NCBI GenBank assembly: GCA_016872875.1
Contig: VGYW01000078.1
Span: forward strand, 1-24,991
Direction: 5' to 3'
Length of the DNA stretch: 24,991 nt
Source of the DNA: Planctomycetota bacterium
GTDB taxonomy: Bacteria > Planctomycetota > PUPC01 > DSUN01
The notes beneath the pieces are model-generated. The model saw only the letters and a program-made list of their open reading frames with translations, was not told where the DNA came from and ran no database searches. The position numbers and the translations under genes were made by a program. Below are positions 3,372-24,991 of the stretch, in pieces (positions within the stretch are counted from its first letter, which is position 1; each line of letters opens with the position of its first letter).

Positions 3372-3588
3372 CCCGCATTTCTGGCGAAATGCGGGAATCA
3401 CCAAATGACAAGCTCCAAGAACCAGACAACGTCCAAACTCCAATCCCCAATCACCCAGACCGAGAGGACACTGAGCTTTCGCCGAAGGTCGGCGTTCTGT
3501 TTCGGTCATTGAGCCTCTGGGGCTTGAGGATTGTCTGGTGCTTGGTGATTGGCACTTGGGATTTCCCGCATATCGTGTGAAATGCGGG
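3372..3588. repeat. Convergent-gene element: end hairpins plus inverted heptamer arms
   Basis: The element fills the gap between two converging stop codons. It begins with a perfect hairpin (cccgcatttc 3372-3381, gaaatgcggg 3386-3395) and ends with a related one (cccgcat 3565-3571, atgcggg 3582-3588). Between them, left-arm units with 7-nt period (CCAAACT, CCAATCC, CCAATCA, CCCAGAC at 3433-3460, preceded by CCAAGAA CCAGACA at 3415-3428) face right-arm units TGTCTGG, TGCTTGG, TGATTGG and CACTTGG at 3532-3559 in opposite orientation. It probably serves as a two-way terminator. The same end hairpin recurs at 13221-13257. Confidence 0.75.
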
Positions 3589-5022
3589 CTAGGCGCTCAG
3601 CACCACGGTCTTCGCGTTGCCCCCAGGCCGCGCGACGTGGACGGCGCAGGAGAGGCAGGGGTCGAAGGAGTGGATGACGCGCAGGAGCTCGACCGGCTGC
3701 GCGATGTCGGCCACGGGCACCCCGAGGAGGGCCTGCTCGATGGGGCCGGCGAAGCCGCCGTCGTCCTTCGGCGAGGCGTTCCAGCCGGTCGGGGTGACGA
3801 CCTGGTAGCGTGAGAGCTTCCCGCTGGCGATGTTGGTCCAGTGGCCGAGTGCGCCGCGCGGGGCCTCGGTGAGGCCGACGCCCGTGGCCGTGGCCGGGAT
3901 GCGGCTGGGGGCCAGGGTGGGGGCGCCGGGGACGAGTTGGTTGAGCCACTCGCCCATCGCCACGGCGATCTTCCTGGCCTCGAGGGTGCGGGCCATGTTG
4001 CGGTCCATCGCCGAGATGCCGTCGCGGTAGTCCCCGTTCACCCACATGCGTGCCAGAGCCCCGACTTCGTGGACCTTGTTCATGTAGCGGGGGGCCTTGA
4101 TCCAGGAGTAGGCCTGGGCCTTGCCGGGGCTGAACCGCGTGACGCCCACGGCGGGGTTGAGGGCGGTGGTGGCGTTGTGGTACCAGGAGTAGCGCACGTA
4201 TTCGGCGATCAGGCGGGTGTCCACGCTGCCCAGGGCGCCGTCGGTGTAGCGGCCGCGGGCGAGGAGCTTGCTGGTGCCGGCCACGTCGAGGTCGAAGACC
4301 CCGTAGGCGGGGAGGTTGCCGCAGCCCTTGCCCATGAGGCCGTATTCGGGGAAGCGTGCGGCGAGGAGCTGGGCGTCGGGGACCTGGACGTCCTCGATGA
4401 AGGTGCGGATGTCGGCCAGGAGGGTTCGGAAGTCGGCGATCTTCTGCGCGGTGGCCGACTCGGTGCAGCCGCCTGGGTAGAAGGTGGAGGGGAGCGGCAG
4501 CTTTCCGCCGAAGATGGCGCCCATCTGGTGCGCCACGCGGCGCATGGCGAGTGCCTGGACGTAGTGGCCGATGAGGCTGGCGGCGTCGGCGCCGCGGAGC
4601 ATGTCGGGCGTCGAGTAGCGCGGCGTCCACGGCGCCATGTCCAGGGCGCCCGTCGTGTCCACGTAGTCGAGCGCCGCCAGGTGGTAGAAGTGGAGGATGT
4701 GGGACTGGAGGAAGTTCGCGCCGAGGACGAGGTTTCGGAGGATGCGGCCGTTGCCGGTGGGCTGGACTCCGAAGGCGGCCTCGAGGTTGAGGGAGGCGGC
4801 CATTCCGTGGGAGACGGGGCAGACGCCGCAGATGCGCTGGGTGTAGTGGACGGCGTCGAGCGGGTCGCGCCCGACGAGGATGAGCTCGAAGCCGCGCAGC
4901 ATCGTCCCCGCGCTCTTCGCCGCCACCACCTGGTTCCTACCATTCACAATGTCCACCGTCACCTCGACGTCGAGGTGGCCCTCAACGCGGGTGACGGGGT
5001 TGATCTTGATCGTCGTCGCCAT
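3589..5022 (-). CDS. [NiFe] hydrogenase large (catalytic) subunit
   Basis: The 477-residue protein carries the bimetallic site. The N-terminal ligand motif RICGVCPVSH puts Cys65 and Cys68 at the Ni, and the C-terminal motif DPCLSCAVH puts Cys456 and Cys459 there. The MATTIKINPVTRVEGHLDVEV start is typical of group 1 large subunits. After His462 there is a 15-residue tail (463-477). In this family a nickel-dependent endopeptidase cleaves after that His, so a protease encoded elsewhere is expected. The subunit has no export signal and would travel with the Tat-tagged small subunit. ATG 5022 is preceded by AGGAG. The gene follows the small subunit after a 57-bp gap containing a short hairpin. 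No cytochrome b, maturation (hyp) or protease genes lie beside it. Reaction: H2 to 2 H+ + 2 e-, probably uptake. Confidence 0.96.
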   Translation of the reverse strand: MATTIKINPVTRVEGHLDVEVTVDIVNGRNQVVAAKSAGTMLRGFELILVGRDPLDAVHYTQRICGVCPVSHGMAASLNLEAAFGVQPTGNGRILRNLVLGANFLQSHILHFYHLAALDYVDTTGALDMAPWTPRYSTPDMLRGADAASLIGHYVQALAMRRVAHQMGAIFGGKLPLPSTFYPGGCTESATAQKIADFRTLLADIRTFIEDVQVPDAQLLAARFPEYGLMGKGCGNLPAYGVFDLDVAGTSKLLARGRYTDGALGSVDTRLIAEYVRYSWYHNATTALNPAVGVTRFSPGKAQAYSWIKAPRYMNKVHEVGALARMWVNGDYRDGISAMDRNMARTLEARKIAVAMGEWLNQLVPGAPTLAPSRIPATATGVGLTEAPRGALGHWTNIASGKLSRYQVVTPTGWNASPKDDGGFAGPIEQALLGVPVADIAQPVELLRVIHSFDPCLSCAVHVARPGGNAKTVVLSA

Positions 5023-5079
5023 TCAGAAGCTCCTAGTGAGGTGTGGGCCGGCCGCCGCGGCGGTTCGAGCCGCCCCTGT

Positions 5080-6117
5080 TCAATCGTCGTGCTCGTCGTC
5101 CTCGTGGTCATCATCCCCACCGCCCTCATCGTCGTCGTCCACGCCCGGGCCTGACATCGTGGTGAAGGGCGACATCACGTCGGGGAAGCCGGGCTCCGTG
5201 CAACCGATGCAGGGGCTCTTTGCGCCGACGCACCAGTTGACGCCGACTCCGCCCGCGGCGGACGCGTTCCACTTGCGCGTAGGGCAGTCGCAGTTCGCCA
5301 CCCGCCCCTTGCAGCCGAGGGCGTAGAGGCACCCGCCCTGGTCCAGGGTGTCGGGGCCGCGAACGTCCCTGTCCCGCGAGCTGTGGCACGAGAAGCAGCT
5401 CAATCCCCTGGTGTGGCCGAGGCGGCGGCCGAAGAGCGAGTTGAAGCTCGCCAGGTAGGGGCACAGGTCGTGCATCGTGCGCCCGAAGTACTCCGTCGGG
5501 CGCAGGAAGCGGTCGAGCGGCGGCACCCGCCCGTTCCTCAGGATGTAGGCGATCGTGCCCGCCACCCAGTCGGGATGCGCCGGGCAGCCGGGGATGTTGA
5601 CGACCGGCCGCGAGCCTACGACGGTCTTGAGCGAGCGCGCCCTGGTCGGGTTGGGCCTGCCGGCGGACACGCCGCCGAAGGAGCTGCACGTGCCCACAGC
5701 CACGCACAGGAGGGCGTTCCGCGCGAAGTCCTGCACCGCCTTCAGCGCGGTCGTGCCGTTCCACACCGTGCAGGCCACGCCGCCCGCCGCGGTGGGGATG
5801 GCGCCCTCGACGACCAGGACGTAGCCGCCCCTGGTGCGCGCCGCCTTGGCCGCAGCAGCCGCCTGCTCGCCCGCCGCCGCCATCACGTTCGGGTGGTACT
5901 TCACGTCCAGCGTCCGAAGCAGCAGGTCGTCTATGCTCATCAGGCTGATGCTGTTGAGGAGGGACACCGAGCAGCCGGTGCAGGCCTGGGCCTGAAGCCA
6001 GACGACGGGGGTTCCGCCCTCGACGGCTTCCGCCTCGCGCATCCGCAGCGCCCCGTAGCCCAGGGCGGTCGCTATCGCCGAGGAGGCGCGGATGAAGTCA
6101 CGGCGCGTCATGCTCAT
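5080..6117 (-). CDS. [NiFe] hydrogenase small subunit, Tat-exported, with extra CxxCH insert and acidic/His tail
   Basis: The 345-residue electron-transfer subunit begins with a twin-arginine signal (TRRDFIR, residues 4-10, then a hydrophobic segment). Proximal cluster ligands are Cys46, Cys49, Cys144 and Cys178. Distal ligands are His216, Cys219, Cys263 and Cys269. Medial ligands are Cys278, Cys303 and Cys306 (PCIGCTEPGF). Two features are odd. Between Cys219 and Cys263 the loop is about 19 residues longer than in the classical Desulfovibrio enzyme and contains CFSCH (241-245), a c-type heme signature. The C-terminus has no membrane anchor but an Asp/Glu/His-rich tail (about 327-345). ATG 6117 is preceded by AAGGAG. 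Export to the periplasm with the large subunit is expected; the electron acceptor is not encoded here. The subunit call is certain; the heme is a possibility only. Confidence 0.95.
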   Translation of the reverse strand: MSMTRRDFIRASSAIATALGYGALRMREAEAVEGGTPVVWLQAQACTGCSVSLLNSISLMSIDDLLLRTLDVKYHPNVMAAAGEQAAAAAKAARTRGGYVLVVEGAIPTAAGGVACTVWNGTTALKAVQDFARNALLCVAVGTCSSFGGVSAGRPNPTRARSLKTVVGSRPVVNIPGCPAHPDWVAGTIAYILRNGRVPPLDRFLRPTEYFGRTMHDLCPYLASFNSLFGRRLGHTRGLSCFSCHSSRDRDVRGPDTLDQGGCLYALGCKGRVANCDCPTRKWNASAAGGVGVNWCVGAKSPCIGCTEPGFPDVMSPFTTMSGPGVDDDDEGGGDDDHEDDEHDD

Positions 6118-6226
6118 ACACAGGCTCCTTGGGTTCTCTCGGGAGGCGTGAAGAAGGGGGGAACCGTCACCAGAATCGGCCTTCCCCTGGCACGAGAGGC
6201 GAGTTGGCAGGCATCACGAGTGCTGC

Positions 6227-6239
6227 ATCACAACGTGAT
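6227..6239. promoter_or_regulatory. Palindrome over the hydrogenase transcription start (candidate operator)
   Basis: atcac-aac-gtgat at 6227-6239 is a dyad with 5-bp arms, placed just downstream of the minus-strand -10 box (6246-6251), where a repressor would block initiation. GCATCAC also occurs twice in the same orientation at 6211-6217 and 6225-6231. Confidence 0.35.
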
Positions 6240-6245
6240 ATATTG

Positions 6246-6274
6246 ATACTACCCATCCGTCTCCTCCGAGTCAA
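6246..6274 (-). promoter_or_regulatory. Promoter of the hydrogenase operon
   Basis: On the minus strand, TTGACT (plus 6269-6274) and TAGTAT (plus 6246-6251) are separated by exactly 17 bp. Transcription would start near 6239, about 120 nt before the small-subunit ATG. Confidence 0.6.
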
Positions 6275-6325
6275 GGGTGTTTTTGCAGGAAATCTCCCCA
6301 ACGCCCGCTGCCCGGTCATGCGGCG

Positions 6326-6354
6326 TTGACTTCGGGACGCCCGGCGCATACACT
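6326..6354 (+). promoter_or_regulatory. Promoter of the sugar-isomerase-like gene
   Basis: TTGACT at 6326-6331 and TACACT at 6349-6354 are spaced by 17 bp. The predicted start near 6361 leaves a leader of about 40 nt. It is divergent from the hydrogenase promoter. Confidence 0.6.
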
Positions 6355-6401
6355 GTTGGCTGCGGTACATCTTCCTCGGAGTCGTCGCAGGAGCAGTTCT
6401 C

Positions 6402-7250
6402 GTGCGAGCTATGCCCATCCTGGTTTGCCTGGCCGCGCTGGCGGCGTTCCCCGAAGCGCGGGGCGCCGCGCCCGCACAACCCTTCTTCGCCTTGTGCCAC
6501 GACACGCACGACGCGAAGAAGCGGGGGCTGAAGGAACAGGCGGAGCTCCTCAAGGACCTGGGCTTCGACGGCTGCGCGCACCTGTGGCTCGGCGGCGTGC
6601 CCGAGCGGCTCAGGACGCTCGACGACGCGGGCCTCAAGCTCGTCGAGATCTACATCCAGGTGAATGTCGCTCCAGGCAAGGCGCCCTACGACCCGAAGCT
6701 CAAGGAGGTGGCCAAGCTGTTGAAGGGGCGCGACACGCTCCTCGGCCTCCTGATGGCCGGCGCGCCGCGCGGGGCGCAGGAGGCCGACGAGCGCGGCGTC
6801 GCCATCCTCCGCGAGATCGCAGACCTCGCCGCCGAGAACGCCCTCCGCGTCGCAATCTACCACCACACCGGCGACTGGACCGAGCGCGTCGAGGACGCCG
6901 TCCGCGTCGTCAAGAAGGCCGACCGCAGGAACCTCGGCGTCCACTTCAACCTCTGCCACTGGCTGAAGGCCGACGGCAAGTGGGACCTCGATGCCACGCT
7001 GAAGCTGGCGGCGCCCCACCTCTTCGTCGTGACCCTCAACGGTGCGGAGAACGCCGACCCGAAGCTGGGCTGGGACAAGCTCATCCAGCCCCTCGGCCGC
7101 GGCGCCTTCGACGTCGCTGGCCTGCTCAAGAAGCTCAGGGAGCTCGGCTACGCCGGGCCGATCGGCCTCATGTGCTACGGCCTGGGCGGCGACGCCCGCG
7201 AGCACCTCAAAGAGTCCATGGCGGCCTGGCGCAAGCTGGCCGCCCAATGA
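6402..7250 (+). CDS. Secreted sugar phosphate isomerase/epimerase-like TIM-barrel protein
   Basis: The 282-residue protein has an N-terminal signal peptide (about 1-24, VCLAALAAFPEARGAAPA) and a xylose-isomerase-like TIM barrel (AP_endonuc_2 type). Typical segments are LLKDLGFDGCAHLW, LKLVEIYIQVNV, ALRVAIYHHTGDW, NLGVHFNLCHWL, HLFVVTLNG and GPIGLMCYG. His, Asp and Glu residues in these strands would form the divalent-metal site of the family. GTG 6402 is preferred because GCAGGAG (6388-6394) lies seven bases upstream; ATG 6411 is the alternative. Members in planctomycete-like genomes are often exported and thought to act on carbohydrates or their oxidised forms; the substrate here is unknown. 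It heads a likely operon with the Tat aldo/keto reductase and the tetraheme lipoprotein, though a repeat-filled 174-bp gap follows. Confidence 0.8.
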   Translation: MRAMPILVCLAALAAFPEARGAAPAQPFFALCHDTHDAKKRGLKEQAELLKDLGFDGCAHLWLGGVPERLRTLDDAGLKLVEIYIQVNVAPGKAPYDPKLKEVAKLLKGRDTLLGLLMAGAPRGAQEADERGVAILREIADLAAENALRVAIYHHTGDWTERVEDAVRVVKKADRRNLGVHFNLCHWLKADGKWDLDATLKLAAPHLFVVTLNGAENADPKLGWDKLIQPLGRGAFDVAGLLKKLRELGYAGPIGLMCYGLGGDAREHLKESMAAWRKLAAQ

Positions 7251-7262
7251 GAGCGCGTAGCG

Positions 7263-7279
7263 GCAAGCGTCACGCTTGC
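7263..7279. terminator. Short hairpin after the isomerase-like gene
   Basis: gcaagcgt at 7263-7270 pairs perfectly with acgcttgc at 7272-7279 around one base, 12 nt after the stop codon. The tight loop would open by a pair or two in RNA. No U tract follows. Confidence 0.35.
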
Positions 7280-7290
7280 ACAGTTGTGCG

Positions 7291-7380
7291 GGGGGATGAA
7301 TGGATGATTGGATGGGTGGATGAATGCCAGAGAGGTCGCGTCTCTCATTCATCCATTCATCCACCCATCCAATCATCCCC
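7291..7380. repeat. Inverted pair of octamer arrays
   Basis: The left arm is built of 8-nt units (ggatgaat, ggatgatt, ggatgggt, ggatgaat). The right arm (from 7346) is built of cattcatc, cattcatc, cacccatc and caatcatc. A 25-bp core, 7302-7326 and 7354-7378, is perfectly inverted, with an apex stem agaga/tctct between. It lies between the isomerase-like gene and the aldo/keto reductase gene and would form a long hairpin in the transcript. Confidence 0.85.
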
Positions 7381-7424
7381 TTTGGTTGCGGCCAATGGCC
7401 GCATTGACAGAATAGGAGCACCCA

Positions 7425-8465: not shown

Positions 8466-8893
8466 TGCGCGCGCCCGCGCTCGGCGGCATCGCCGTCGCG
8501 GCGGCGGCCATCGCCGCCGTTTCCTGCCGCTCTGGCCCGCAGCCGCAGAACGACCCCCTCGGCCCCAACGCCGGCTGCTACGTCTGCCACATGACCTTCC
8601 TCAACGAGCCCCTGAGCACCACCCACCTGCGGGCGGGCATCGGATGCGTGCGCTGCCACGGCGTGAGCGCCGCCCACGCAAACGACGAGAACATCGGGGC
8701 CACCAAGCCCGACGTGGTGATCAAGGCCAGCGAGGTCAACGCCTTCTGCCGCAAGTGCCACGCGAAGCACGACGTTCCGCCCGAGGCCATCGTCGCCCGC
8801 TGGCAAGCGCGCTTCCCCGCCGGCCCGAAGCCGCCGCCCACCCCCACCTGCACCGCCTGCCACGGCACCCACAAGATCGCCAGGAAACCATAG
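8465..8893 (+). CDS. Tetraheme c-type cytochrome lipoprotein
   Basis: The 142-residue protein has a lipoprotein signal with Cys21 after AAVS. Four CxxCH heme c sites follow: CYVCH (38-42), CVRCH (61-65), CRKCH (95-99) and CTACH (129-133). Additional His residues (54, 71, 102, 136) could be distal ligands, giving a small bis-His cytochrome of the c3/NapC-like type. The start codon shares its A with the stop of the aldo/keto reductase gene (TGATG), so translation is coupled. Anchored outside the cytoplasm, it is a natural electron partner for the upstream Tat-exported protein and perhaps for the hydrogenase. Maturation would need the cytochrome c assembly system, which is not in this window. 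Confidence 0.9.
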   Translation: MRAPALGGIAVAAAAIAAVSCRSGPQPQNDPLGPNAGCYVCHMTFLNEPLSTTHLRAGIGCVRCHGVSAAHANDENIGATKPDVVIKASEVNAFCRKCHAKHDVPPEAIVARWQARFPAGPKPPPTPTCTACHGTHKIARKP

Positions 8894-8928
8894 CCCCCGC
8901 GCCTGCCTCCTCGCTCGTGCTCGCCTGC

Positions 8929-9015: not shown

Positions 9016-9024
9016 CCCTTCCAG

Positions 9025-13029: not shown

Positions 13030-13262
13030 CCTGCACTTCCCACGAAGTGCTGGAGATCCGAAACCCCGAATCCGAAATCCGAAGGAATATCAAAGCCGAA
13101 AACCCCAATTGCCGAAACGTCGCCCCAGAAGATCGCCGCGCACTGTGTTGCTCTTGTCTTGGTCATTGGGATTTCGGGTTTCGGATTTCTTTCGGACTTC
13201 GTGCTTCGGATTTCGAGTCTCCCGCATTTCCCGCCAGCGACTGGTGAGAAATGCGGGCCTAT
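13030..13262. repeat. Second convergent-gene element with heptamer arms and end hairpins
   Basis: The element fills the gap between converging genes. The left end hairpin is gcacttc/gaagtgc (13033-13039, 13044-13050); the right is cccgcatttc/gaaatgcggg (13221-13230, 13248-13257) with an inner ccag/ctgg stem. The left arm has 7-nt units ATCCGAA, ACCCCGA, ATCCGAA, ATCCGAA (13056-13083). The right arm has seven units of TTCGG type in unbroken 7-nt register (13171-13219) in opposite orientation. It probably works as a bidirectional terminator. Confidence 0.75.
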
Positions 13263-14049: not shown

Positions 14050-14115
14050 AGGCTTCGCCTTTCGCCAGTCAAGTCTTGCCCCTCATCGTGGGTCCGTTCT
14101 CAAGTTCCAACTCCT

Positions 14116-14210
14116 ACTCGTCGTCGTCCTCGTCGTCGTCGTCGAGTCCACTGGCTTTCCCCCCTTCAGGGAATCCGACGACGAGGACGACGACGACCAC
14201 GACGACGAGT
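14116..14210. repeat. Trinucleotide (TCG/CGA) stem-loop, copy 1
   Basis: A (TCG)n-rich left arm (14116-14144) faces a (CGA)n-rich right arm (14176-14210) around a 31-nt loop containing AGTCC, CTGG, TTTC and CCCCCTTC. The same loop elements in the same order occur in copy 2 at 19335-19416. The rest of the gap (14050-14115, 14211-14392) shows nothing I can name. Confidence 0.75.
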
Positions 14211-14392
14211 GGGCACCCCAACGTCAATGGCCACGACCCCGCCAATCCCTCTGCCCCCGGCAGACGCTACCATACCACGAAAGCGGGGAGATTGCACCCA
14301 TCGCGCCGACCTTGCGCCCCGGCGCGCGCATGCCTGCGCAGTGCGGATGGAGCCAGACGCCCCTGCGCGGGAGGAAGGTCGCATGTGACGCG

Positions 14393-16218: not shown

Positions 16219-16312
16219 AGCTTCGAGCCACGAGCGGCGAGCTACGAGCCTCGGAACCAGGAAAAGCCAAGAGAACCTTCGGCTCGAAGCTCGCGGCTCA
16301 TGGCTCGCAGCT
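16219..16312. repeat. Inverted heptamer repeat between topA and the transporter gene
   Basis: The arms 16219-16250 and 16281-16312 are inverted copies with four mismatches in 32. Each is made of 7-nt units of the form CGAGCNN (CGAGCCA, CGAGCGG, CGAGCTA, CGAGCCT at 16224-16251). The right arm abuts the topA stop codon, so it may be the topA terminator. Confidence 0.75.
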
Positions 16313-16314
16313 TC

Positions 16315-18936
16315 CTACGCGTTCTCGGTGTATCGGCACTTCGGATAGCCGGAGCAGCCGATGAAAGGCCCTCGGCGGCTCCGGCGGATGACGAGCGGCT
16401 TCTGGCATTCGGGACAATTCCGCCCGGCCTCCTGCGGCGGCGGTGGCGGGGGGGCCGACTTGTCGGGCTTCATGTTCCGGCACTTCGGATAGGCGGAGCA
16501 GGCCAGGAAGGCGCGCCCGCGCCACCTGCGGCGGACCATGGGCGCCCCGCACTTCTCGCACTTCGCCTCGGCGCCCTCGATGGGCGGCGCCCCCTCGCCC
16601 GCGGCGTCGCGCGTGTAGCGGCACTTCGGGTAGCCGGAGCACCCGAAGAACCTGCCCCGCTTCCCCTCGCGGGCGACGAGCGGCTTGCCGCACTTGGGGC
16701 ACTTCTCGCCCGCAGGCTCAGGCGGCTTGCTCTCGGGCGCCGCGGGCGGGGCTTCGCCGCCTGGGGCGGCCGGAGCGGCCGCCGCGTCGCGCGTGTAGCG
16801 GCACTTGGGGTAGCCGGAGCATCCGATGAACTTGCCGCGTCGCCCCTCCTTGGCCACGAGCGGCTTGCCACAGTTGGGGCACTTCTCGCCCGTGGGCTCG
16901 GGCGCCCTGCGCGCCGGGGCAGGCGCGGCCTCCTGGCCCTCGGCGGGGGCCGCCTCCACGTTCCGCGTGTAGCGGCACTTAGGGTAGCCGGTGCAGGCGA
17001 TGAACTTGCCCTTCCGCCCCGTTCGCACGACCAGCGGCTCGCCGCACTCCGGGCACTTCTCGTCGAGCTTCTCCACGGGCGTCGGCTCTCCTTCATCGTC
17101 CAGGGCCTGAGCGTAGCGGCAGTTGGGGAAGCCGGAGCAGGCCATGAAGCGCCCCTTCTTCGAGAGGCGCACGACCATCTCGGCGCCGCAGCGGGGACAC
17201 TGGACGCCGGTGGGCGTGGCGAGCGACTTCTTGACGCTGTGCATCTCGGCCTGGGCCTTCGCAAGGTCGGCGCTGAACGGCTCGTAGAACTCGCGCAACA
17301 CCTCCCGCCAGTCCCGCTTCGCCTCCTCGATGCTGTCGAGGTGGTCCTCGAACCGCGAGGTGAACTTCGTGTTGATGATGTTCTCGAAGAAGGGGAGCAG
17401 GGCGTCGTTGGTCACGATGCCCAGCTCTTTGACGTAGAAGACCTTGTCGCGGATTTCGGCGTAGCCGCGCTCCTGGATGGTGGAGACGATCTGCGCGTAA
17501 GTGCTGGGGCGTCCGATGCCCTCCTTCTCTAGCGTCTTGACGAGCGACGCCTCGGTGTAGCGGGGCGGCGGCTTGGTGAAGTGCTGAGAGGGCACAAGCT
17601 CAAGGCAACGGAGGCGTTGTCCCACCGCCAAAGGCGGTGGCGGCGGATTCTCGCGGACCAGAGGCGGATACACGCGCGTGTGGCCGTCGAAGACCACTGC
17701 TCGCCCCGCTGCCTTGAACAACCCGGGGCCTGCCTCGACGGCCACGCTCGCCGCGTCGTACTGAGCATCCGCCATCTGGCTGGCGACGAAGCGCTCCCAG
17801 ATAAGGCGGTACAGCCTGAGCTGGTCGGTGGTCAGATAGCGCTCTAGCTTCTCAGGCGTCCGCTCCACCGACGTGGGGCGAATGGCCTCGTGGGCCTCTT
17901 GCGCGCTGCGGCGCGATTTGTAAACCCGCTCCTCAGGCGACAAATAGCGCTCGCCAAACCGCTTGACGATCGAGTCGCGGCACTCTTGCACAGCCTCGGC
18001 CGCCACGCGGAACGAGTCCGTCCGCATATAGGTGATGAGCCCCACTGAGCCCTCGGGTCCGATCTCGATGCCCTCATAGAGCTGTTGGGCCAACATCATA
18101 GTCACCTTCGGTTTGAGCCCAAGCCGCACCGAGGCGGCCTGCTGGAGCTGGCTGGTCGCAAAGGGCGGGTTCGGCTTCACGAATTGACGCTTCGTCTCAA
18201 ACGAGACAACCCGATACTCCTTGCCTCGGAGGCTTTCAACGACGCGGTTGGCCTCCTCGCCGTTGGGGATTTCGACCTTCTCTCCATCGTATTCAGCCAA
18301 AAGGGCCTCGAAAACCCGCTGGCCTTCCGGGGCATCCATTGGCTGAAGCTTCGCCGCTATCTCCCAGTACTCTATGGGCACGAAGGCCTGGATTTCCTTC
18401 TCGCGTTCGACGAGGAGGCGGAGGGCGACGGACTGGACGCGTCCCGCGCTGAGGCCACGGAGGATTTTCTTCCAGAGCAGGGGCGAGAGCTGGTAGCCCA
18501 CGATGCGATCGAGGATGCGCCGCGCCTGCTGCGCGTTCACGAGGTTCATGTCTATGTCGCGCGGCTGGCTGAAGCCTTCCTCAATACCGCGTTCGGTGAT
18601 CTCGTTGAATGTCACCCGGCGGATCCGGCTCCTGGGCAGCTTGAGCGCCTCGGCCAGGTGCCACGCGATGGACTCCCCCTCGCGGTCGGGGTCGGGCGCA
18701 AGATACACGGCTTCGGCGCCCTTCGTGGCCTTGGCAAGCGCCTCGATCACCCGCCTGCGGTCGGGCAGCACCTGGTACTCGGGCACGAACCCCTTCTCGA
18801 TCTCCACGCCGAAGGCCCGCTTGGGCAGGTCACGGACGTGTCCCATGCACGACTCGACGTGGAAGTCTCTGCCAAGGACTTTGCCGATCGTGCGCGCCTT
18901 GGCCGGCGACTCGACGATGACGACTTTCTTTCCCAC
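16315..18936 (-). CDS. topA: DNA topoisomerase I with six C-terminal zinc ribbons
   Basis: The 873-residue type IA topoisomerase relaxes negatively supercoiled DNA. The TOPRIM domain carries VIVESPAKA (6-14) and the metal-binding DPDREGE (82-88). The active-site tyrosine is Tyr303 in ITYMRTDSFR. RGLSAGRVQSVALRLL (160-175) is a family hallmark. From about residue 585 six Topo_C zinc ribbons (CPxCG...CSGYPKCRYT type) follow, separated by Ala/Pro/Glu linkers; most homologues have three or four. The fifth has CEKCG and a final CRNMK, and the sixth has CPECQ. GTG 18936 is preceded by AAGGAG, and a strong promoter lies at 18965-18994. Confidence 0.97.
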   Translation of the reverse strand: MGKKVVIVESPAKARTIGKVLGRDFHVESCMGHVRDLPKRAFGVEIEKGFVPEYQVLPDRRRVIEALAKATKGAEAVYLAPDPDREGESIAWHLAEALKLPRSRIRRVTFNEITERGIEEGFSQPRDIDMNLVNAQQARRILDRIVGYQLSPLLWKKILRGLSAGRVQSVALRLLVEREKEIQAFVPIEYWEIAAKLQPMDAPEGQRVFEALLAEYDGEKVEIPNGEEANRVVESLRGKEYRVVSFETKRQFVKPNPPFATSQLQQAASVRLGLKPKVTMMLAQQLYEGIEIGPEGSVGLITYMRTDSFRVAAEAVQECRDSIVKRFGERYLSPEERVYKSRRSAQEAHEAIRPTSVERTPEKLERYLTTDQLRLYRLIWERFVASQMADAQYDAASVAVEAGPGLFKAAGRAVVFDGHTRVYPPLVRENPPPPPLAVGQRLRCLELVPSQHFTKPPPRYTEASLVKTLEKEGIGRPSTYAQIVSTIQERGYAEIRDKVFYVKELGIVTNDALLPFFENIINTKFTSRFEDHLDSIEEAKRDWREVLREFYEPFSADLAKAQAEMHSVKKSLATPTGVQCPRCGAEMVVRLSKKGRFMACSGFPNCRYAQALDDEGEPTPVEKLDEKCPECGEPLVVRTGRKGKFIACTGYPKCRYTRNVEAAPAEGQEAAPAPARRAPEPTGEKCPNCGKPLVAKEGRRGKFIGCSGYPKCRYTRDAAAAPAAPGGEAPPAAPESKPPEPAGEKCPKCGKPLVAREGKRGRFFGCSGYPKCRYTRDAAGEGAPPIEGAEAKCEKCGAPMVRRRWRGRAFLACSAYPKCRNMKPDKSAPPPPPPQEAGRNCPECQKPLVIRRSRRGPFIGCSGYPKCRYTENA

Positions 18937-18964
18937 TGGCTCTCCTTGTGAGTGAAGAATCGGC

Positions 18965-18994: not shown

Positions 18995-19005
18995 GCAAGG
19001 GGCGA

Positions 19006-19320
19006 TTCCGGGCGCGTGGAATCCCCTACGGCCAAGACAGCGCCTCTTGCAGCCTCCGTATGGAGGCGGGGGATTATAGCCCTCGGCGATGCTCGGAGAG
19101 CCGTGGGTTGACTGGTCGCCCGCGGCCCAGCCCCCGAAGCGGGGCGGCGGAACCTCGGGGACCACGGTTCCCCCGCCCCGCTTCGGGGGCTGGGCCTTGT
19201 TCTCGCACCCATACCCACGGCTCTCCGAGCATCGCCGTGGGCTATACTCCGCCACGCCCTTCGGGCGTTGGCTCTGCGCCCCTCGGCCGTAGGAGATTAC
19301 ACGCACCCGCGATTCCCGCC
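19006..19320. repeat. Nested palindrome of about 315 bp
   Basis: Two perfect stems are nested: an outer 25-bp pair (19084-19108 with 19213-19237), extended outward by ATAGCCC/GGGCTAT to about 19076 and 19245, and an inner 24-bp pair (19124-19147 with 19173-19196). Beyond the outer stem the flanks still match as diverged inverted copies: gaatcccctacggcc on the left against the complement of ggccgtaggagatta on the right. They also carry small side hairpins (cctccgtatggagg; cgcccttcgggcg). No coding content is seen. It lies between the divergent topA and uracil-DNA glycosylase promoters. Confidence 0.85.
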
Positions 19321-19334
19321 GTTTCGGTTCCCAT

Positions 19335-19416: not shown

Positions 19417-19441
19417 CAGAAACGCGAAGCGATCGTGCGGT

Positions 19442-19470
19442 TTGACGTCTGATCGCGCCGGCGCTATACT
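19442..19470 (+). promoter_or_regulatory. Promoter of the uracil-DNA glycosylase operon
   Basis: TTGACG at 19442-19447 and TATACT at 19465-19470 are spaced by 17 bp. The start near 19477 would leave a leader of under 20 nt, containing GAAAGGAG at 19478-19485 as ribosome-binding site. Confidence 0.75.
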
Positions 19471-19493
19471 GGCCGCGGAAAGGAGCGCGCGAC

Positions 19494-20456
19494 GTGTCGA
19501 GCGAAGCGGACCCTCGCCAGGAGTATGCGGCTCTCCTGCGCGCCGTGGCGGCGCGCGTGGAGCTGGAACAGGGCTTTGGCATCGAGAGCTGGCGCCTCCC
19601 ACTCCCGCCGCTTCCGTCGGCCAGGCCACCCAGCCCGGAGGCCACGCCGCGCCCCGCGGAGCCCCAGGCGGTCGGCAAGCGGCAGGCGGCAACCGGCAGT
19701 GAGCAGTCAGCAGCCGGCAGTCGGCAGCCAGCAGGCGGCAGTCGGCAGCCGGCAGCGCCGCGGCCTCCTGTCTCGGCTTCTGCTCCGCCGAAGGCGCCTG
19801 AGCCACAGGCCGCCCTCGACATCGCCACGGGCGCTAACGTGGACCTCTTCCAGGCGAAGGACTACGACATCCAGTTCCCCGAGGGGCTGACGAAGCAGGG
19901 CCAGCTCGACCACTTTGCGAAGGCCATCGCCGGCTGCACGCTCTGCCCGCTCCACGCCAAACGCACCCAGGTGGTCTTCGGCGTGGGGAACCCCGATGCC
20001 GAGCTGATGTTCGTGGGCGAGGCCCCGGGCCAGGACGAGGACGAGCAGGGCGAGCCCTTCGTCGGCCGCGCCGGACAGCTCCTCAACAAGATCATCACGG
20101 CGATGGGCTACAAGCGGGCCGACGTTTATATCGGGAACGTCAACAAGTGCCGCCCGCCCGACAACCGTGCGCCGCTGCCCGACGAGATGGACCGCTGTCG
20201 CCCCTTCCTCCTGCGGCAGATTGACATCGTGAGGCCCAAGGTCATCTGCCTCCTCGGCGCGACCGCCGTCCGCGGACTGCTCCAGTCCAAGGACAGCATC
20301 AGCTCGATTCGCGGCCGCTTCCTCCGCTGGCGCGGCATCCTCGTCATGCCCACCTTTCACCCAGCCTACCTCCTCCGCAACCCTGGCGAGAAGCGCACCG
20401 TCTGGGAAGACGTCCAGAAGGTCCGCGACCTCCTCCGCGGCAAGCTCACCGTCTGA
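19494..20456 (+). CDS. Family 4 uracil-DNA glycosylase (4Fe-4S) with repeat-derived linker
   Basis: The 320-residue protein removes uracil from DNA. The catalytic half (about 135-318) has 4Fe-4S ligands Cys148, Cys151, Cys219 and Cys235, motif [21 protein letters not shown] (175-194) and the late motif HPAYLL with His289. GTG 19494 is set by GAAAGGAG eight bases upstream. The N-terminal 130 residues are unusual: a short helical segment, then a Pro/Ala-rich linker whose residues about 60-88 (GSRQPA repeats) are encoded by a tandem 7-nt array (19671-19754). The core length is normal for the family. The next gene starts 11 nt after the stop and is probably co-transcribed. Confidence 0.93.
19671..19754 (+). 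repeat. Heptamer tandem array inside the uracil-DNA glycosylase gene
   Basis: Twelve consecutive 7-nt units, mostly of the form NNCGGCA (gtcggca, agcggca, ggcggca, accggca, gtgagca and so on), span 84 bases. That is 28 codons, so the reading frame is kept, and the peptide repeats with a 7-residue period ([14 protein letters not shown]). Confidence 0.85.
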
Positions 20457-20467
20457 AGGGCGTGCGA

Positions 20468-21361
20468 ATGAGTGCGTCACGGGCCTTGTCGCTTCTGGCC
20501 GCCGCCGTTGCTCTGGCCTCGTGCATGGCCCCGCCTCTGGGTCTGGAGCCGACCCGGTCGGGCCTCCTCGTGCTGCTGACGGACTTCGGCGACCGCGACC
20601 ACTACGTGGGCGCGATCAAGGGGGCCGCCTACCGCGCCAATCCCACCGTTCGCATCCAGTCCATCACCCACCAGATCGCGCCGTTCGACATCTGGGAGGG
20701 GGCAGTGACGCTCGCCCTCGGGGCCAAGGAGTTCCCCCCGGGCACCGTCTTTGTCGCGGTCGTTGACCCAGGCGTCGGCACCCGGCGGCGGGCTCTGGCC
20801 CTGCGGACCGAGGCCGGGCGCTTCTACGTGGCGCCCGACAATGGCCTGCTGACCTTCGTCGCCCGACGCGAGGGGGTGGTGGACGTGCGCGACATCTCGG
20901 CCCTTCAGCCCCTGGGCCACCGGCCATCGAACACCTTCCAGGGCCGCGACCTCTTCGCCCCCGCCGGCGCGCTCCTTGCCGGCGGGGAGTCCCTTGCCCG
21001 ATTGGGGCCGCGCCTCAAGCCCGCCGAGATCGTCATGCTCCCCGTTGTCGAGCCCGCGCTCGAAGGCGGCCGCCTCAAGGGCTCCGTGCTACGCGTGGAC
21101 CGCTATGGGAACATCGTGACAAACATCCCGGCCGACCTCGTGGCGAAGGCCGGCCTCAAGCGCGGCGGCAGGCTCGAGGCGAGCGTCGGCGCCGCCACCG
21201 TGCAGGCGCCCTTCGCCGCCACGTACGGCGACGTCGCCCGGGGTGAGGCAGTGGCCCTTGTTGACAGCATCGGCAACCTCGAGCTAGCCATCAACATGGG
21301 CGACCTGGCCGCCCGGCTCAAGGCCCGGCCTGGCATGCCCGTCGAGGTCCGAAAGCCGTAG
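20468..21361 (+). CDS. DUF62 / SAM hydroxide adenosyltransferase family protein with lipoprotein signal
   Basis: The 297-residue protein belongs to the SAM-dependent halogenase/hydroxide adenosyltransferase (DUF62) family. It shows LLTDFGDRDHYVGAIKG, the SITHQIAPFDIWEGA segment, FPPGTVFVAVVDPGVGT, FYVAPDNGLLTFV and a C-terminal barrel with VDRYGNIVTNI and LVDSIGNLELAINMG. Characterised housekeeping members hydrolyse S-adenosylmethionine to adenosine and methionine. Oddly, residues 1-19 form a lipoprotein signal (LLAAAVALASC, Cys19), which would place it outside the cytoplasm, where SAM is not expected. ATG 20468 is preferred over GTG 20462 because GAAGGG lies seven bases before it. It is co-transcribed with the uracil-DNA glycosylase. 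Confidence 0.88.
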   Translation: MSASRALSLLAAAVALASCMAPPLGLEPTRSGLLVLLTDFGDRDHYVGAIKGAAYRANPTVRIQSITHQIAPFDIWEGAVTLALGAKEFPPGTVFVAVVDPGVGTRRRALALRTEAGRFYVAPDNGLLTFVARREGVVDVRDISALQPLGHRPSNTFQGRDLFAPAGALLAGGESLARLGPRLKPAEIVMLPVVEPALEGGRLKGSVLRVDRYGNIVTNIPADLVAKAGLKRGGRLEASVGAATVQAPFAATYGDVARGEAVALVDSIGNLELAINMGDLAARLKARPGMPVEVRKP

Positions 21362-21381
21362 CCCTTGCCGGACGGTCCCGG

Positions 21382-21777
21382 ATTTCGGAGTTGATCAACT
21401 CCGAGATCACTTCGCCCAGCGCCGTGGGAAGGGCGCAGAGGCCGTTCATGCCGTCCAAGCCATCTCCCGGCCAGCCTCACAGTGAGGCGTGCGCTTCCCG
21501 CCCAGGCGCTCACTTGCGCGCCACGGGGATGAGCGCCTGGGAGCTCCGGCGGAGGTGGTTTTTCCCTGGCTCTAAGCGCCCAATCAGCAATGGCTTATGG
21601 CTCTCACCAGACCGCGGACCCGGCCTCAGCCGCCCAGGCGCTCACTTGCGCGCCACGCGGGTGAGCGCCTGGGAGCGCCAGCTCTGGCACACTATCCGGA
21701 CCGGCGAGTCCATGAGGATTGCTGAGGTCGAGTGAGCGGGGGGTGGTGTTGATCTCGGAGTTGATCAACTCCGAAAT
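21382..21777. repeat. 396-bp unit with 28-bp terminal inverted repeats and two internal hairpin copies
   Basis: The ends 21382-21409 and 21750-21777 are perfect inverted copies (28 bp), each containing the 20-bp perfect palindrome TCGGAGTTGATCAACTCCGA (21385-21404; 21755-21774). Inside are two direct copies of a 46-nt hairpin unit with 12- and 13-bp stems: 21501-21512 with 21530-21541, and 21633-21645 with 21661-21673 (cccaggcgctcac type). There is no transposase or other gene inside and no clear target duplication. It may be a MITE-like element or a compound regulatory region before the gene at 21830. Confidence 0.75.
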
Positions 21778-21829
21778 ATGCTCTGCCCGCGCTGAGGGCA
21801 GCCCCCGAGGCAATAGGAGGAGCCTTCCG

Positions 21830-24205
21830 ATGAAGCGCTTTGGAGTGTCCCTTGCACTGCTCGTCTGCCGGGGCCTGGCCCTGGCGGGCGAGAATCTCCT
21901 CGTCAACGGCGGCTTCGAGGAAGGGCTGGGGGGTTGGAGCAAGCTCTGGACGCGGACGCCGAACGCGGGCTCGGCGCAGCTTCGCCAGGAGGGCGCACAT
22001 GGCGGCAAGGGCTGCGCCCAGATCGAGCACACGGGCGCCAGCGACTGGAGCTTCGCACAGGAGAAGCCCGTCGCAGTCCAGCCGGGCCAACTCTACGAGC
22101 TGCGGGGCTGGGTCACGGTGGAGGGACGAGGCACCGCCGAGCTGTGCGTCGTGCTCCGCGATGCGAAGGGGGAGGTGCTGGACTGGGTGTTTGCGGGCCG
22201 CCGCTCGGGGGCCACGGCCCAGTGGCGGCTCCTCCGCTCGCGCTTCGTGGTGCCAGCCGGAGCGTCGAGCATCGTGCCGCGGCTCATCGGCAACGGGCCG
22301 GCAACCGTCCACCTCGACGACGCCTCTCTCACCCTGGAGGGCGCAATGGACGCTCTGCGCGCGAAGGACCTGCCCGAGACCATCAAGGTGTCGAGCGCAA
22401 CGCTGGATGTGACGCTTCACACGGCCGACGCCCGCCTGGCCGTGGCCGACCGCCGCACGGGCCAGGCCTGGGAGCAGAGGCCGAAGAGCGCCTCCGTGGT
22501 AGCCGTGGCCGCTAAGGCGGTTGAGGGCGGCCTCGACTTCCGCCTGCTCCAGCCCGAGGGCGCGAATGAGCTGGCGGCCACGCTCCGTCTCGACCGCGAC
22601 CGCCCCGAGATCGTCCTGGAGCTCGAGGGCAAGGGCGAGATGTCGAGCACCCTTGCCTTCCCGCCCCCCTTCGCCGCGGCTAAGGGACAGCTCCTCATCC
22701 TGCCGGTCAACGAGGGGATTAGCTACCCCGCCGACGACGCGACCCTGCCGCCAATGCACTACTACCTCTATGGCGGCCACGGACTGTGCATGCCGTGGTA
22801 CGGGCAGACTGACGGCGAACGCGGGGTGATGGCGATCGTGGGAACGGCGGACGATGCGGCGGTGCGCGTCCCGCGGCTCGATGGCCTGCTCCACCTTGCG
22901 CCCGAGTGGCAGCCGCAGAAAGGCCAGTTCGGCCCGAAGCGGGCCATCCGCTACATCTTCCTCGATAGGGGCGGCTACGTGGCCATGGCCAAACGTTACC
23001 GCGAGCACGCGAAGAAGACCGGCCTGTTCAGGTCGCTCGAAGACAAGCGCAAGGAGAATCCGAACGTTGACCTCCTCATCGGCGCGGTGAACGTGTGGTG
23101 CTGGGAGAAGGACGCGCCGGCCATCGCGCGCGAGATGCAGGCCGCGGGCATCACCCGCATCCTGTGGAGCAACGGTCGCCCGCCCGAACAGCTCAAGGCC
23201 CTCAACGAGCTTCCCGGCGTGCTGACCAGCCGCTACGACATCTATCAGGACACGATGGACCCCTCCCAATTCCCAAAGCTGCGGTGGACTCACGGCGACT
23301 GGACGACTGAGGCGTGGGCGAACGGCGACCTCATGCGGGGGCCGAGCGGCGACTGGCTCAAGGGCTGGAAGGTCGAGACCAAGGAGGGCCCGATGGTCCC
23401 CTGCGGCGTCCTGTGCGACCTGCGAGCGCCCGACTACGCCCGCCGCCGCATCCCCGCCGAGCTGAAGTCCCACCCCTACCGCTGCCGCTTCATTGACACC
23501 ACGACCGCCAGCCCCTGGCGCGAATGCTACGACCCCAAGCACCCCTGCACCCGCACCGAGAGCAAGCGGGCGAAGATGGAACTCCTCCGCCTCGTCGGCG
23601 AGGAGTGCGGCCTCGTGTGCGGCAGCGAGACCGGGCACGACGCCGCGGTGCCCTTCGTCCACTACTTCGAGGGCATGCTCAGCCTCGGCCCCTACCGCGT
23701 GCCCGACAGCGGCCGGGCCATGCAGAAGCTCTGGTTCGACGTGCCCGAACCCGTCGCCAAGTTCCAGACCGGCCACTTCTACCGCCTGCCCCTCTGGGAG
23801 CTGGTCTACCACGACTGCGTCGTCGCCCAGTGGTACTGGGGCGACTACAACAACAAGCTGCCGCGGCTGTGGGACCGCCGTGATATGTGGAACGCCCTCT
23901 ACGGCACGCCGCCGATGTTCATGTTCGACCGCAAGCTCTGGGCGGCGGGCCGCGACCGCTTCGTCCGCAGCTACAAGGCCATCGAGCCAATCGCCCGCGC
24001 CACGGGCTACAGCGAGATGCTCTCCCACCGTTGGCTGACCGCCGACCATGCGGTGCAGGAGACGCGCTTCCGCAATGGGGTGGTTGTCGTCGCCAACTTT
24101 GGCGAGAAGCCCCACAAGCTGGGCGATGGCACGGAGCTTGCGCCGCTTAGCCATCGCGTGGAGGGAGTTGCCGAGGAGAGACGACAGATGACAGATGACA
24201 GATGA
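21830..24205 (+). CDS. Secreted glycoside-hydrolase-like protein with N-terminal carbohydrate-binding domain
   Basis: The 791-residue protein has a signal peptide (1-19, VSLALLVCRGLALAG). A CBM4/9-like jelly roll (about 20-170) follows, starting NLLVNGGFEEGLGGW and ending VHLDDASLTLEG. A middle beta-rich part (to about 380) precedes a large catalytic-type domain (about 395-740). Within it, RFIDTTTASPWRECYDP (about 552-568) and VCGSETGHDAAVPFVHYFEG (about 595-615) hold Asp and Glu candidates for catalysis. The closest recollection is GH101/DUF5696-type planctomycete proteins, but the family is not certain. AGGAGG precedes ATG 21830. The last codons (RRQMTDDR, stop) run into a tandem heptamer array that supplies the stop codon, so the original C-terminus may have been replaced. 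Confidence 0.7.
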   Translation: MKRFGVSLALLVCRGLALAGENLLVNGGFEEGLGGWSKLWTRTPNAGSAQLRQEGAHGGKGCAQIEHTGASDWSFAQEKPVAVQPGQLYELRGWVTVEGRGTAELCVVLRDAKGEVLDWVFAGRRSGATAQWRLLRSRFVVPAGASSIVPRLIGNGPATVHLDDASLTLEGAMDALRAKDLPETIKVSSATLDVTLHTADARLAVADRRTGQAWEQRPKSASVVAVAAKAVEGGLDFRLLQPEGANELAATLRLDRDRPEIVLELEGKGEMSSTLAFPPPFAAAKGQLLILPVNEGISYPADDATLPPMHYYLYGGHGLCMPWYGQTDGERGVMAIVGTADDAAVRVPRLDGLLHLAPEWQPQKGQFGPKRAIRYIFLDRGGYVAMAKRYREHAKKTGLFRSLEDKRKENPNVDLLIGAVNVWCWEKDAPAIAREMQAAGITRILWSNGRPPEQLKALNELPGVLTSRYDIYQDTMDPSQFPKLRWTHGDWTTEAWANGDLMRGPSGDWLKGWKVETKEGPMVPCGVLCDLRAPDYARRRIPAELKSHPYRCRFIDTTTASPWRECYDPKHPCTRTESKRAKMELLRLVGEECGLVCGSETGHDAAVPFVHYFEGMLSLGPYRVPDSGRAMQKLWFDVPEPVAKFQTGHFYRLPLWELVYHDCVVAQWYWGDYNNKLPRLWDRRDMWNALYGTPPMFMFDRKLWAAGRDRFVRSYKAIEPIARATGYSEMLSHRWLTADHAVQETRFRNGVVVVANFGEKPHKLGDGTELAPLSHRVEGVAEERRQMTDDR

Positions 24206-24251
24206 CAGATGACAGACGACAGATGACAGACGACAGATGACAGATGACAGA
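24182..24251 (+). repeat. Heptamer array, left (ten YGACAGA units)
   Basis: Ten units of TGACAGA or CGACAGA run without interruption. The array spans the stop codon of the glycoside-hydrolase-like gene and ends 19 nt before the next start. Its unit CGACAGA is the complement of the TCTGTCG phase of the array at 24746. Confidence 0.92.
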
Positions 24252-24269
24252 GAAGAGAGGAGAAGAACC

Positions 24270-24662
24270 GTGAGTGAGAGGATTGAGAGCTTCCGGGACC
24301 TGAAGGTGTATAGGAAGGGATTCGAGCTTCAGCAGGAGGTGTTCGCGCTCAGCAAGAGATTCCCGAGAGAGGAGCGCTATTCACTCACTGACCAGATCCG
24401 CCGCGCGTCGCGGTCAGTCGGCTCAAACATTGCGGAAGGCTGGCAGAAGCGTCGCTATGCCGCGCACTTCGTGAGCAAGCTATCAGACGCCGACGGCGAG
24501 CAAGCCGAGACTCAGCATTTCCTAGACACGTCGCTCGCGTGCGGGTACGTCTCGCCTGAAGACCACCGGCGGCTCTTGGGCAGATGTGTTGAGATCGGCA
24601 AGATGCTGGGTGCTATGATGGCCGAGCCGGAGAAGTGGTGCGCTCGCTTCCATAGGACATAA
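24270..24662 (+). CDS. Four-helix-bundle protein (S23 / 23S rRNA intervening-sequence type)
   Basis: The 130-residue protein matches the four-helix-bundle family first seen in 23S rRNA intervening sequences and related to the bAvd accessory protein of diversity-generating retroelements. Marks are FRDLKVYRKGFELQQEVF, RFPREERYSLTDQIRRASRS, VGSNIAEGWQKRRY and DADGEQAETQHFLDTSLACG. The family forms small basic oligomers that may bind nucleic acid; its free-standing role is unknown. GTG 24270 is chosen because GAGGAG (24257-24262) lies seven bases upstream; an ATG at 24237 inside the heptamer array is in frame but less likely. The gene is flanked by inverted heptamer arrays. No reverse transcriptase or rRNA is nearby. 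Confidence 0.9.
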   Translation: MSERIESFRDLKVYRKGFELQQEVFALSKRFPREERYSLTDQIRRASRSVGSNIAEGWQKRRYAAHFVSKLSDADGEQAETQHFLDTSLACGYVSPEDHRRLLGRCVEIGKMLGAMMAEPEKWCARFHRT

Positions 24663-24745
24663 CTGTCGGCGGCACCTTTCGCGCCCTCGCTCACCCCCTG
24701 CGCGGCTACTCCGCCCCAGTGCGGTAGCTTTTCGTCGGTGTTGTA

Positions 24746-24991
24746 CCCTCTGCCCTCTGTCCTCTGTCGTCTGTCCTCTGTCCTCTGTCGTCTGTCGTCT
24801 GTCCTCTGTCGTCTGTCCTCTGTCCTCTGTCGTCTGTCGTCTGTCGTCTGTCCTCTGTCGTCTGTCGTCTGTCCTCTGTCGTCTGTCGTCTGTCGTCTGT
24901 CCTCTGTCGTCTGTCGTCTGTCCTCTGTCGTCTGTCGTCTGTCGTCTGTCCTCTGTCGTCTGTCGTCTGTCGTCTGTCCTCTGTCCTCTGT
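24746..24991 (-). repeat. Heptamer array, right (35 units, continues past the window)
   Basis: Two CCCTCTG units are followed by 33 units of either TCCTCTG or TCGTCTG with no indels, up to the window edge. The orientation is opposite to the array at 24182-24251. The stretch 24663-24745 before it shows no gene. Confidence 0.95.

Follow-up and report, generated by a model that had tools for sequence, protein, structure and literature searches.

The intervening sequences (IVSs) of 23S rRNA genes in Coxiella, Leptospira, and other bacteria combine a gene of the S23/IVP family with inverted ends that can form a stem, measure about 0.4 to 0.5 kb, and are sporadically distributed, according to the portions of the source consulted here (PMC4990558). 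In Coxiella, the same portions describe two or three GACAGAT heptamers ahead of the S23 frame, their number depending on the strain; the terminal inverted repeats there form a stem of 28 bp, and RNase III cuts the IVSs (PMC4990558). We analyzed a stretch of 24,991 nucleotides from a Planctomycetota bacterium (contig VGYW01000078.1, assembly GCA_016872875.1; G+C content, 67%), hereafter the window, and found at its right end a gene of the same family (PF05635, here called IVP) between two inverted arrays of 7-nt units, the arms. This pair of arms probably represents the ends of a small mobile cassette that is kin to the rRNA IVSs and has gene-less derivatives.

The left (5') arm (24179 to 24251, plus strand) consists of about 10 units TGACAGA, and the right (3') arm (24756 to 24991, minus strand) consists of at least 33 units TCTGTCG, inverted to the left arm and reaching the window end. 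Tandem Repeats Finder (TRF) assigned period 7 to both, with 10.4 and 33.7 copies, respectively, at 92% each. We scored inverted pairs in the window by local alignment against 500 shuffles each, and the two arms gave an 89-bp inverted match (24173 to 24261 with 24816 to 24904; score, 128) that none of the shuffles reached. The IVP gene between them (24270 to 24662, plus strand) matches PF05635 with an E value of 7.4e-33, above the family cut-off. Its GTG start at 24270, which follows a purine-rich stretch resembling a ribosome-binding site, was picked by eye; an ATG at 24237, inside the arm, is also in frame, but the GTG is more likely to be the start. On the upstream side, a GH129-like frame ends at a TGA (24203 to 24205) within the left arm, while the far side lies beyond the window end. 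The heptamer of this cassette is the GACAGAT described in the Coxiella IVS (PMC4990558). Unlike the IVSs, however, the cassette lies beside the GH129-like gene and not in an rRNA gene, both of its arms are periodic arrays, versions with 8- and 9-nt units occur, and gene-less copies are scattered. Furthermore, the Coxiella frame is described as undergoing reductive evolution (PMC4990558), whereas the window protein is under purifying selection. We compared it with its counterpart in a close relative, the Planctomycetota metagenome-assembled genome (MAG) M_DeepCast_400m_m2_195 (G001, the genome of locus L001), which shares 89% identity with the window in the DUF72 protein and 73 to 89% in long DNA matches. 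Nonsynonymous and synonymous divergences (dN and dS) were 0.09 and 1.12 for the IVP gene and 0.16 and 0.57 for GH129, and the IVP values indicate that the protein has been kept by selection.

The AlphaFold model of the IVP protein is of high confidence (predicted local distance difference test [pLDDT], 94.8), and its fold, a four-helix bundle, matches the S23-family structures 2GSC and 2RLD. Conservation centers on a core around Q42, R44, R45, S49, N53, and E56. The protein also resembles Avd of diversity-generating retroelements, to which PF05635 has been likened in the part of that work available to us (PMC10053308), in fold (4DWL; a weaker match, with an E value of 0.012 and TM scores of 0.74/0.88) and, weakly, in sequence (PF22296 bAvd; E value of 4.7e-9, under its cut-off). 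No Pfam family besides PF05635 and bAvd matched the cassette protein at E values up to 0.001, and no HUH tyrosine (Y1) transposase was found. Unlike in a diversity-generating retroelement, no reverse transcriptase occurs among the ten window proteins that we scanned against Pfam, which are part of the open frames of the window; template and variable repeats were not searched for. An obligate reverse transcriptase is likewise unsupported by the IVP-bearing genomes G003 and G005, which have no RVT_1 match (both are MAGs and may be incomplete).

REPtrons with their REPINs and TIRtrons, the systems built on repetitive extragenic palindromic (REP) sequences and terminal inverted repeats (TIRs), also have a gene between inverted ends, and some have dispersed gene-less relatives, in the sections seen of the account describing them (PMC3733652). 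They differ from the cassette, which encodes an IVP/Avd-type four-helix bundle where they have an HUH transposase and whose ends are arrays of 7- to 9-nt units. REP and TIR families with tyrosine transposases are its nearest counterpart in lifestyle. The TAACTGA repeats of Beggiatoaceae and cyanobacteria (PMC4679880) and the repeats of Chloroflexus (PMC6749651) share with the arms 7-nt tandem units that are mostly intergenic; in the excerpts of these two reports, they are chiefly direct arrays of one sequence, while the arrays studied here show many different sequences in one genome, pair in inverted orientation, and are linked to a family of genes. A search of the open-access literature, with subscription papers outside its reach and the papers found represented by excerpts, yielded no general account of periodic inverted arms around PF05635 genes.

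We then asked how PF05635 genes are flanked in general. The locus set numbered 78 including the window (17 from a protein scan of genome contigs, the best 30 from 6 genomes, and the best 30 from 392 planctomycete genomes), or 72 after removal of 6 duplicates. Hosts of the 17 were Planctomycetota, Verrucomicrobia, Lentisphaerales, Kiritimatiellae, Caldilineae, Anaerolineae, Roseilinea, Acidobacteriota, Saccharicrinis, and one other bacterium; among the 392 planctomycete genomes, 198 had PF05635 matches, 188 of them above the family cut-off. The 250 bp before the matched stretch were compared with the 250 bp that follow the stop, taken as reverse complement, and a score of at least 26 was taken as a pass. 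Flanks were mutually inverted in 45 of the 70 evaluable loci, compared to 0 of 66 at 450 to 700 bp out. Flank pairs formed across loci passed in 2.9% of cases, and in 36 loci the own flanks were mutual best matches. The figure of 45 is lowered by match starts that misframed some subthreshold loci: in L002, L006, L010, and L013, for example, the start is out of frame and the "downstream" flank falls inside or before the gene, and these loci were retained in the count. In 65 of the 72 loci, no more than 150 nt separated the end of the match from the stop. In the planctomycete subset, which held the best 30 by hidden Markov model score irrespective of arms, 19 passed.

The arrays beside the 72 genes were of particular unit lengths. 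Lag-7 arrays numbered 17 upstream and 19 downstream in the near flanks versus 1 and 1 in the far ones, lag-8 arrays 9 and 8 versus 1 and 2, and lag-9 arrays 2 and 1 versus 2 and 0; none were found at lags 6, 10, 11, and 12. The control loci behaved differently, with no arms at 12 DUF72 loci and no 7- or 8-nt arrays at threshold in the flanks of 8 Y1-transposase loci. The full structure had a median of about 522 bp (n = 45), with arms of about 40 bp regardless of period, and a purine-rich 5' arm was the commoner state (36 of 45 loci). A cassette would thus typically comprise an arm no shorter than about 40 bp, the gene for the IVP/S23 four-helix bundle, and an inverted arm, in about 0.5 kb as a rule.

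Wherever both arms were clearly periodic, they had the same period (34 of 34 loci: 7/7 in 21, 8/8 in 11, 9/9 in 2, and none mixed). Unit length was not significantly clustered on the protein tree, with 13 changes against a shuffled mean of 14.5 and 72 of 500 shuffles as low; this tree, built from few columns, is poorly resolved and leaves 34 of its 65 inner branches open. A period fixed by the protein clade is therefore unsupported. Taken together, these two findings suggest that unit length changes often and in both arms at once, and such concerted change supports a generating or homogenizing process on top of descent.

We expressed arm similarity as the cosine of 5-mer content and compared it with protein identity in 63 loci with periodic arms (1,776 pairs from different genomes). 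The cosine rose from 0.04 below 40% identity to 0.06 at 40 to 50%, 0.12 at 50 to 60%, 0.25 at 60 to 70%, and 0.47 above 70% (Spearman coefficient, 0.17, a value reached by 0 of 999 permutations). By contrast, arms within one genome were no more alike (0.063; 66 pairs) than arms of different genomes (0.059). At protein identities of at least 60%, 58 of the 65 between-genome pairs had no common flanking coding homology (within up to 2.5 kb, at 1e-6). The arm cosine was 0.277 in the 55 scorable pairs among these 58 and 0.55 in the 7 pairs with shared flanks; single pairs varied widely, from 0.00 to 0.77. As judged by these sequences, gene and arms appear to have moved together. Statistically, then, the arms accompany the cassette and neither the site nor the genome, both arms of a cassette share unit length and sequence family, and the combination of arms and gene recurs at unrelated sites across several phyla.

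This changes how the repeats of the window are to be read. The preliminary description, in which the PF05635 gene between the right-end arms had gone unnoticed, had placed them at unrelated gene boundaries and had preferred a shared generating mechanism to descent. The first view does not hold as such, because the arm families go with PF05635 gene lineages instead. Of the second, the common process stands, supported by the equal periods in 34 of 34 loci, but descent matters too, because arm sequence tracks protein relatedness over different sites.

We next examined arrays without an IVP gene. In an 800-kb sample of the 8.9-Mb G001 genome, we found 42 lag-7, 13 lag-8, and 13 lag-9 arrays, compared to 0, 0, and 2 in phase-preserving shuffles, and none at lags 5 and 11. 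The 7-nt excess that had been proposed as a check is thus present in this sample. Inverted partners within 250 bp also exceeded direct ones, so that neither of the two results named beforehand as refuting was encountered here: among tight arrays, 26 inverted versus 6 direct of 66 for period 7 and 19 versus 0 of 23 for period 8, with no partners at 1.5 kb. Many arrays lack a partner, though; among looser arrays, the inverted, direct, and partnerless numbered 9, 4, and 29 of 42 for period 7, 9, 0, and 4 of 13 for period 8, and 4, 0, and 9 of 13 for period 9. Within the same distance, the genome of Candidatus Roseilinea (G006, from locus L014) gave 29 inverted versus 4 direct of 87, and that of an Anaerolineae member (G005, from L012) showed a slight excess or none (6 versus 4 of 25 for period 8 and 2 versus 2 of 8 for period 7).

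Some of these gene-less arrays resemble the arms of IVP cassettes in their own genomes. Against seven cassettes (that of the window and six from among the 13 G001 IVP matches), 17 of 65 gene-less arrays of periods 7 to 9 in G001 reached a cosine of at least 0.5, compared to 0.3 expected from seven random foreign cassettes; 10 of the 17 belong to the octamer GGATGAAT family and 7 to four other families. At the same threshold, matches to own cassettes were found for 16 of 66 arrays in G006 (0.73 expected), 3 of 20 in G005 (0.10 expected), and 1 of 5 in G004 (0.00 expected), and at 0.3 or more for 13 of 20 in G005 (0.81 expected). The G005 sample is chiefly octameric (20 lag-8 versus 4 lag-7 arrays), like three of its IVP cassettes. 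Gene-less pairs and single arrays of like sequence families are thus, statistically, scattered in the genomes that hold the cassettes, at densities that vary much from genome to genome. When we looked by eye for an origin of the GGATGAAT family by internal deletion, the arms matched an IVP cassette, but the spacers were not clearly derived from it.

The window itself contains several such gene-less pairs. Heptamer short tandemly repeated repetitive sequences (STRRs), known from filamentous cyanobacteria, were the parallel first drawn for the heptamer arms; they likewise consist of 7-nt tandem units that are mostly intergenic, but chiefly as direct arrays of one sequence. The 7-nt arrays reported at five loci are real, and at four of the five the arms are inverted beyond all 500 shuffles, as had been stated. 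Apart from the right-end pair, these are 3406 to 3429 with 3531 to 3554 (score, 28; the weakest inverted match), 13052 to 13105 with 13168 to 13222 (score, 37), and 16219 to 16250 with 16281 to 16312 (score, 44). We compared matches of 28 at lags 4 to 12 in each arm, and lag 7 was best in both arms of all four pairs (19 and 18, 17 and 18, 20 and 18, and, at the right end, 27 and 27). TRF independently returned period 7 for 13056 to 13083, 13169 to 13215, 16219 to 16249, 16280 to 16312, 19680 to 19756, 24179 to 24251, and 24756 to 24991, and the pair at 3406 was not among its arrays. The claim that the period is conserved while the sequence varies was borne out except that the period is not 7 alone, since 8 and 9 occur too. 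Indeed, two arms of period 8 (7302 to 7326 with 7354 to 7378), inverted to each other without mismatch over 25 bp and absent from the preliminary description, form a gene-less pair of the GGATGAAT family (7294 to 7378, plus strand). Among the candidates scored, 7 G001 contigs contain stretches matching this pair, and its cosine to the arms of an IVP cassette of G001 (L046) is 0.56.

The three gene-less heptamer pairs differ in how closely they resemble known IVP arms. The CGAGCnn pair (16219 to 16312, plus strand), between the Nramp and topoisomerase I genes, has a cosine of 0.52 to the arms of another G001 cassette (L036), and the nearest arms to the TTCGGAT pair (13052 to 13222, minus strand), which has small CCCGCATTTC-type hairpins outside it, are those of L038 in G004 (0.47 to 0.49). 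The CCAA/TTGGnnn pair (3406 to 3562, minus strand), with CCCGCAT-type hairpins at 3372 to 3395 and 3566 to 3588, has no good match (best cosine, just 0.30). The fifth locus is a direct array of CGGCAGN (19673 to 19756, plus strand; 84 bp, 12 units; TRF periods 7 and 21) within a uracil-DNA glycosylase (UDG) frame (PF03167); it has no inverted partner, 158 and 128 of 500 shuffles scoring as high, and its best IVP-arm cosine is not above 0.15.

Two sites can be compared between the window and G001. In both, the GH129 frame continues into the array, where a TGA ends it, so the GH129/arm junction looks shared; the IVP gene beside it is oppositely oriented in the two, a reversal that reflects either a flip of the cassette between its arms or an exchange of the gene. 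At the Nramp/topoisomerase I (TopA) site, both have a gene-less pair (L060 in G001), with units that have changed, as seen by eye. Beside the 3-keto-disaccharide hydrolase gene, the DUF72 gene, and the gene at 6402 to 7250, G001 lacks the element, and synteny is broken there too; these element-free junctions correspond to the two sides of the TTCGGAT pair and one side of the octamer pair.

How such cassettes could arise and spread is suggested by these patterns. Slippage would alter the number and sequence of the units, and copying from arm to arm through a hairpin, by template switching or gene conversion, would keep the arms alike at the DNA level and would also flip the gene between them. 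Together, the two processes could explain both the concerted change of units and the flipping. The gene-less pairs of the window may be nonautonomous derivatives of such cassettes, comparable to miniature inverted-repeat transposable elements (MITEs) or REPs. The weakest step is the role of the protein, which might recognize its own arm family and thereby aid the spread of the cassette. It would act as an arm-recognizing oligomer (a solved relative is oligomeric, and it is kin to Avd), while cutting and copying would fall to enzymes encoded outside the cassette.

More broadly, we tentatively suggest that IVP/S23 proteins might mark a large unrecognized class of transposase-less mobile DNA, with ends self-built from 7-, 8-, or 9-nt units that are alike in length and change in sequence, and with gene-less copies seeded around; rRNA IVSs would then be those few that inserted into ribosomal genes, with Avd as a domesticated cousin. 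We know of no other element whose inverted ends change unit length and sequence in concert. Under this proposal, the orphan family PF05635 acquires a role that can be tested, dispersed "satellite" arrays are traced to a cause, and the rRNA IVSs are given an origin; the proposal further predicts that every IVP should recognize its own arm family.

Several observations weigh against a mobile cassette of this kind. No nuclease or transposase motif was visible on inspection of the IVP protein, and we observed no movement: the three G001 junctions include no clean empty site, all being synteny breaks as well. At the GH129 site, the dS of the IVP gene is about twice that of GH129, and the flipped copy may therefore be a separate insertion or replacement and not an inversion. 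Inverted flanks fell below threshold in 25 of the 70 evaluable loci, and the unclustered unit length fits poorly with a protein that dictates the unit. Of the gene-less arrays, 48 of 65 in G001 and 50 of 66 in G006 stay below a cosine of 0.5 to every own-genome cassette compared, and across all G001 arrays, the own cassettes outscored equally large foreign sets in just 62% of draws, with the comparison covering 6 of the 13 IVP matches of that genome and the cassette of the window. Finally, 2 lag-7 arrays were found in 328 kb from ten IVP-rich planctomycetes and 0 in 254 kb from ten IVP-free ones (two runs of N dropped), suggesting that IVP alone does not bring abundant gene-less arrays.

Alternatively, the 7- to 9-nt inverted hairpins could be older and independent, with IVP genes inserting into their loops, the arms being the target. 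That gene-less arrays far outnumber IVP genes (42 at lag 7 in 800 kb, compared to 13 IVP matches in the whole of G001) would agree with such homing, as would the opposite orientation of IVP beside the same GH129-side arm in two relatives and the position of known IVSs on rRNA helix tips, where they replace tetraloops, in the passages we could consult (PMC4990558). We nevertheless consider it unlikely, since the arm family tracks the IVP lineage and not the genome, which is unexpected unless each IVP lineage is target specific. It seems quite improbable that the arrays are slippage-born satellites that pair by chance or hairpin repair and are linked to IVP only incidentally. Bacterial heptamer satellites such as (GATAGRA)n are known from Chloroflexus, in the portion of the report at hand (PMC6749651), unit length changes often, and the UDG array has no partner; on the other hand, arms at 45 of 70 IVP loci against none of 66 nearby flanks or 12 DUF72 controls, and gene-less arrays that match IVP arms of their own genome, speak for a link. 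A slippage origin is thus hard to hold for arms flanking IVP and possible for some isolated arrays.

We also weighed a REP-associated tyrosine transposase (RAYT) or TIRtron-type system, in which the repeats are the product of an HUH (Y1) transposase and IVP rides along. G001 does have 19 Y1_Tnp matches, REPs occur in the Planctomycetes-Verrucomicrobia-Chlamydiae group, and other bacteria have TIR families accompanied by tyrosine transposases, as stated in the sections available (PMC3733652). However, the 8 Y1_Tnp flanks that lacked 7- or 8-nt arrays held nonperiodic inverted repeats in 6 cases (scores, 35 to 219), and the octamer-rich G005 has one Y1 match, making this explanation highly improbable. 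Finally, the arms can form long hairpins close to gene ends, and rRNA IVS stems are RNase III substrates in the part of the literature seen (PMC4990558), which would suit terminators, mRNA-stabilizing hairpins, or RNase III sites selected in the transcript. Such a function at the RNA level is hardly credible: across 48 arm alignments, mismatches of G.U type on the coding strand were about as frequent as those of A.C type (116 versus 108; 19 versus 18 loci), giving no sign of strand-specific selection for pairing, and an Rfam scan of the window gave no match at the gathering threshold. Nothing thus indicates maintenance of the arms as an RNA stem, and a process at the DNA level is the simpler reading.

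Y1 (RAYT-like) loci were also seen in their own right. L193, L109, and L122 in G001 and L194 in G003 have inverted repeats without 7- or 8-nt periodicity (scores, 50 to 219; the Y1 match of L122 is under the family cut-off), and these repeats apparently belong to a separate system. A long nonperiodic inverted repeat in the window (19010 to 19308) matches six G001 contigs among those scored; it had no BLAST match to the Y1-transposase loci that we fetched, and a link to them was dropped.

Other repeats of the window lie outside the 7-nt arm pairs. Hairpins of the type TAGCCCGCATTTC...GAAATGCGGGCTA start at or near stop codons at 3372 to 3395, 3566 to 3588, and 13221 to 13257, and one also adjoins a CGAGC pair in G001 (L089, 8450 to 8487). 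CGCC tetramer arrays form an inverted pair (1297 to 1319 with 1845 to 1867) about 525 bp apart, with outer ends TTCCGAACAA...TTGTTCGGAA by eye, and a perfect 28-bp inverted pair with GAGTTGATCAACTC (21382 to 21409 with 21750 to 21777) is separated by about 340 bp. The topoisomerase I gene has an internal 180-bp tandem repeat (16605 to 17062) and six C4 zinc-ribbon matches. Inverted TCG/CGA arrays of period 3/6 (14113 to 14144 with 14182 to 14213) have dispersed matches on more than 10 G001 contigs.

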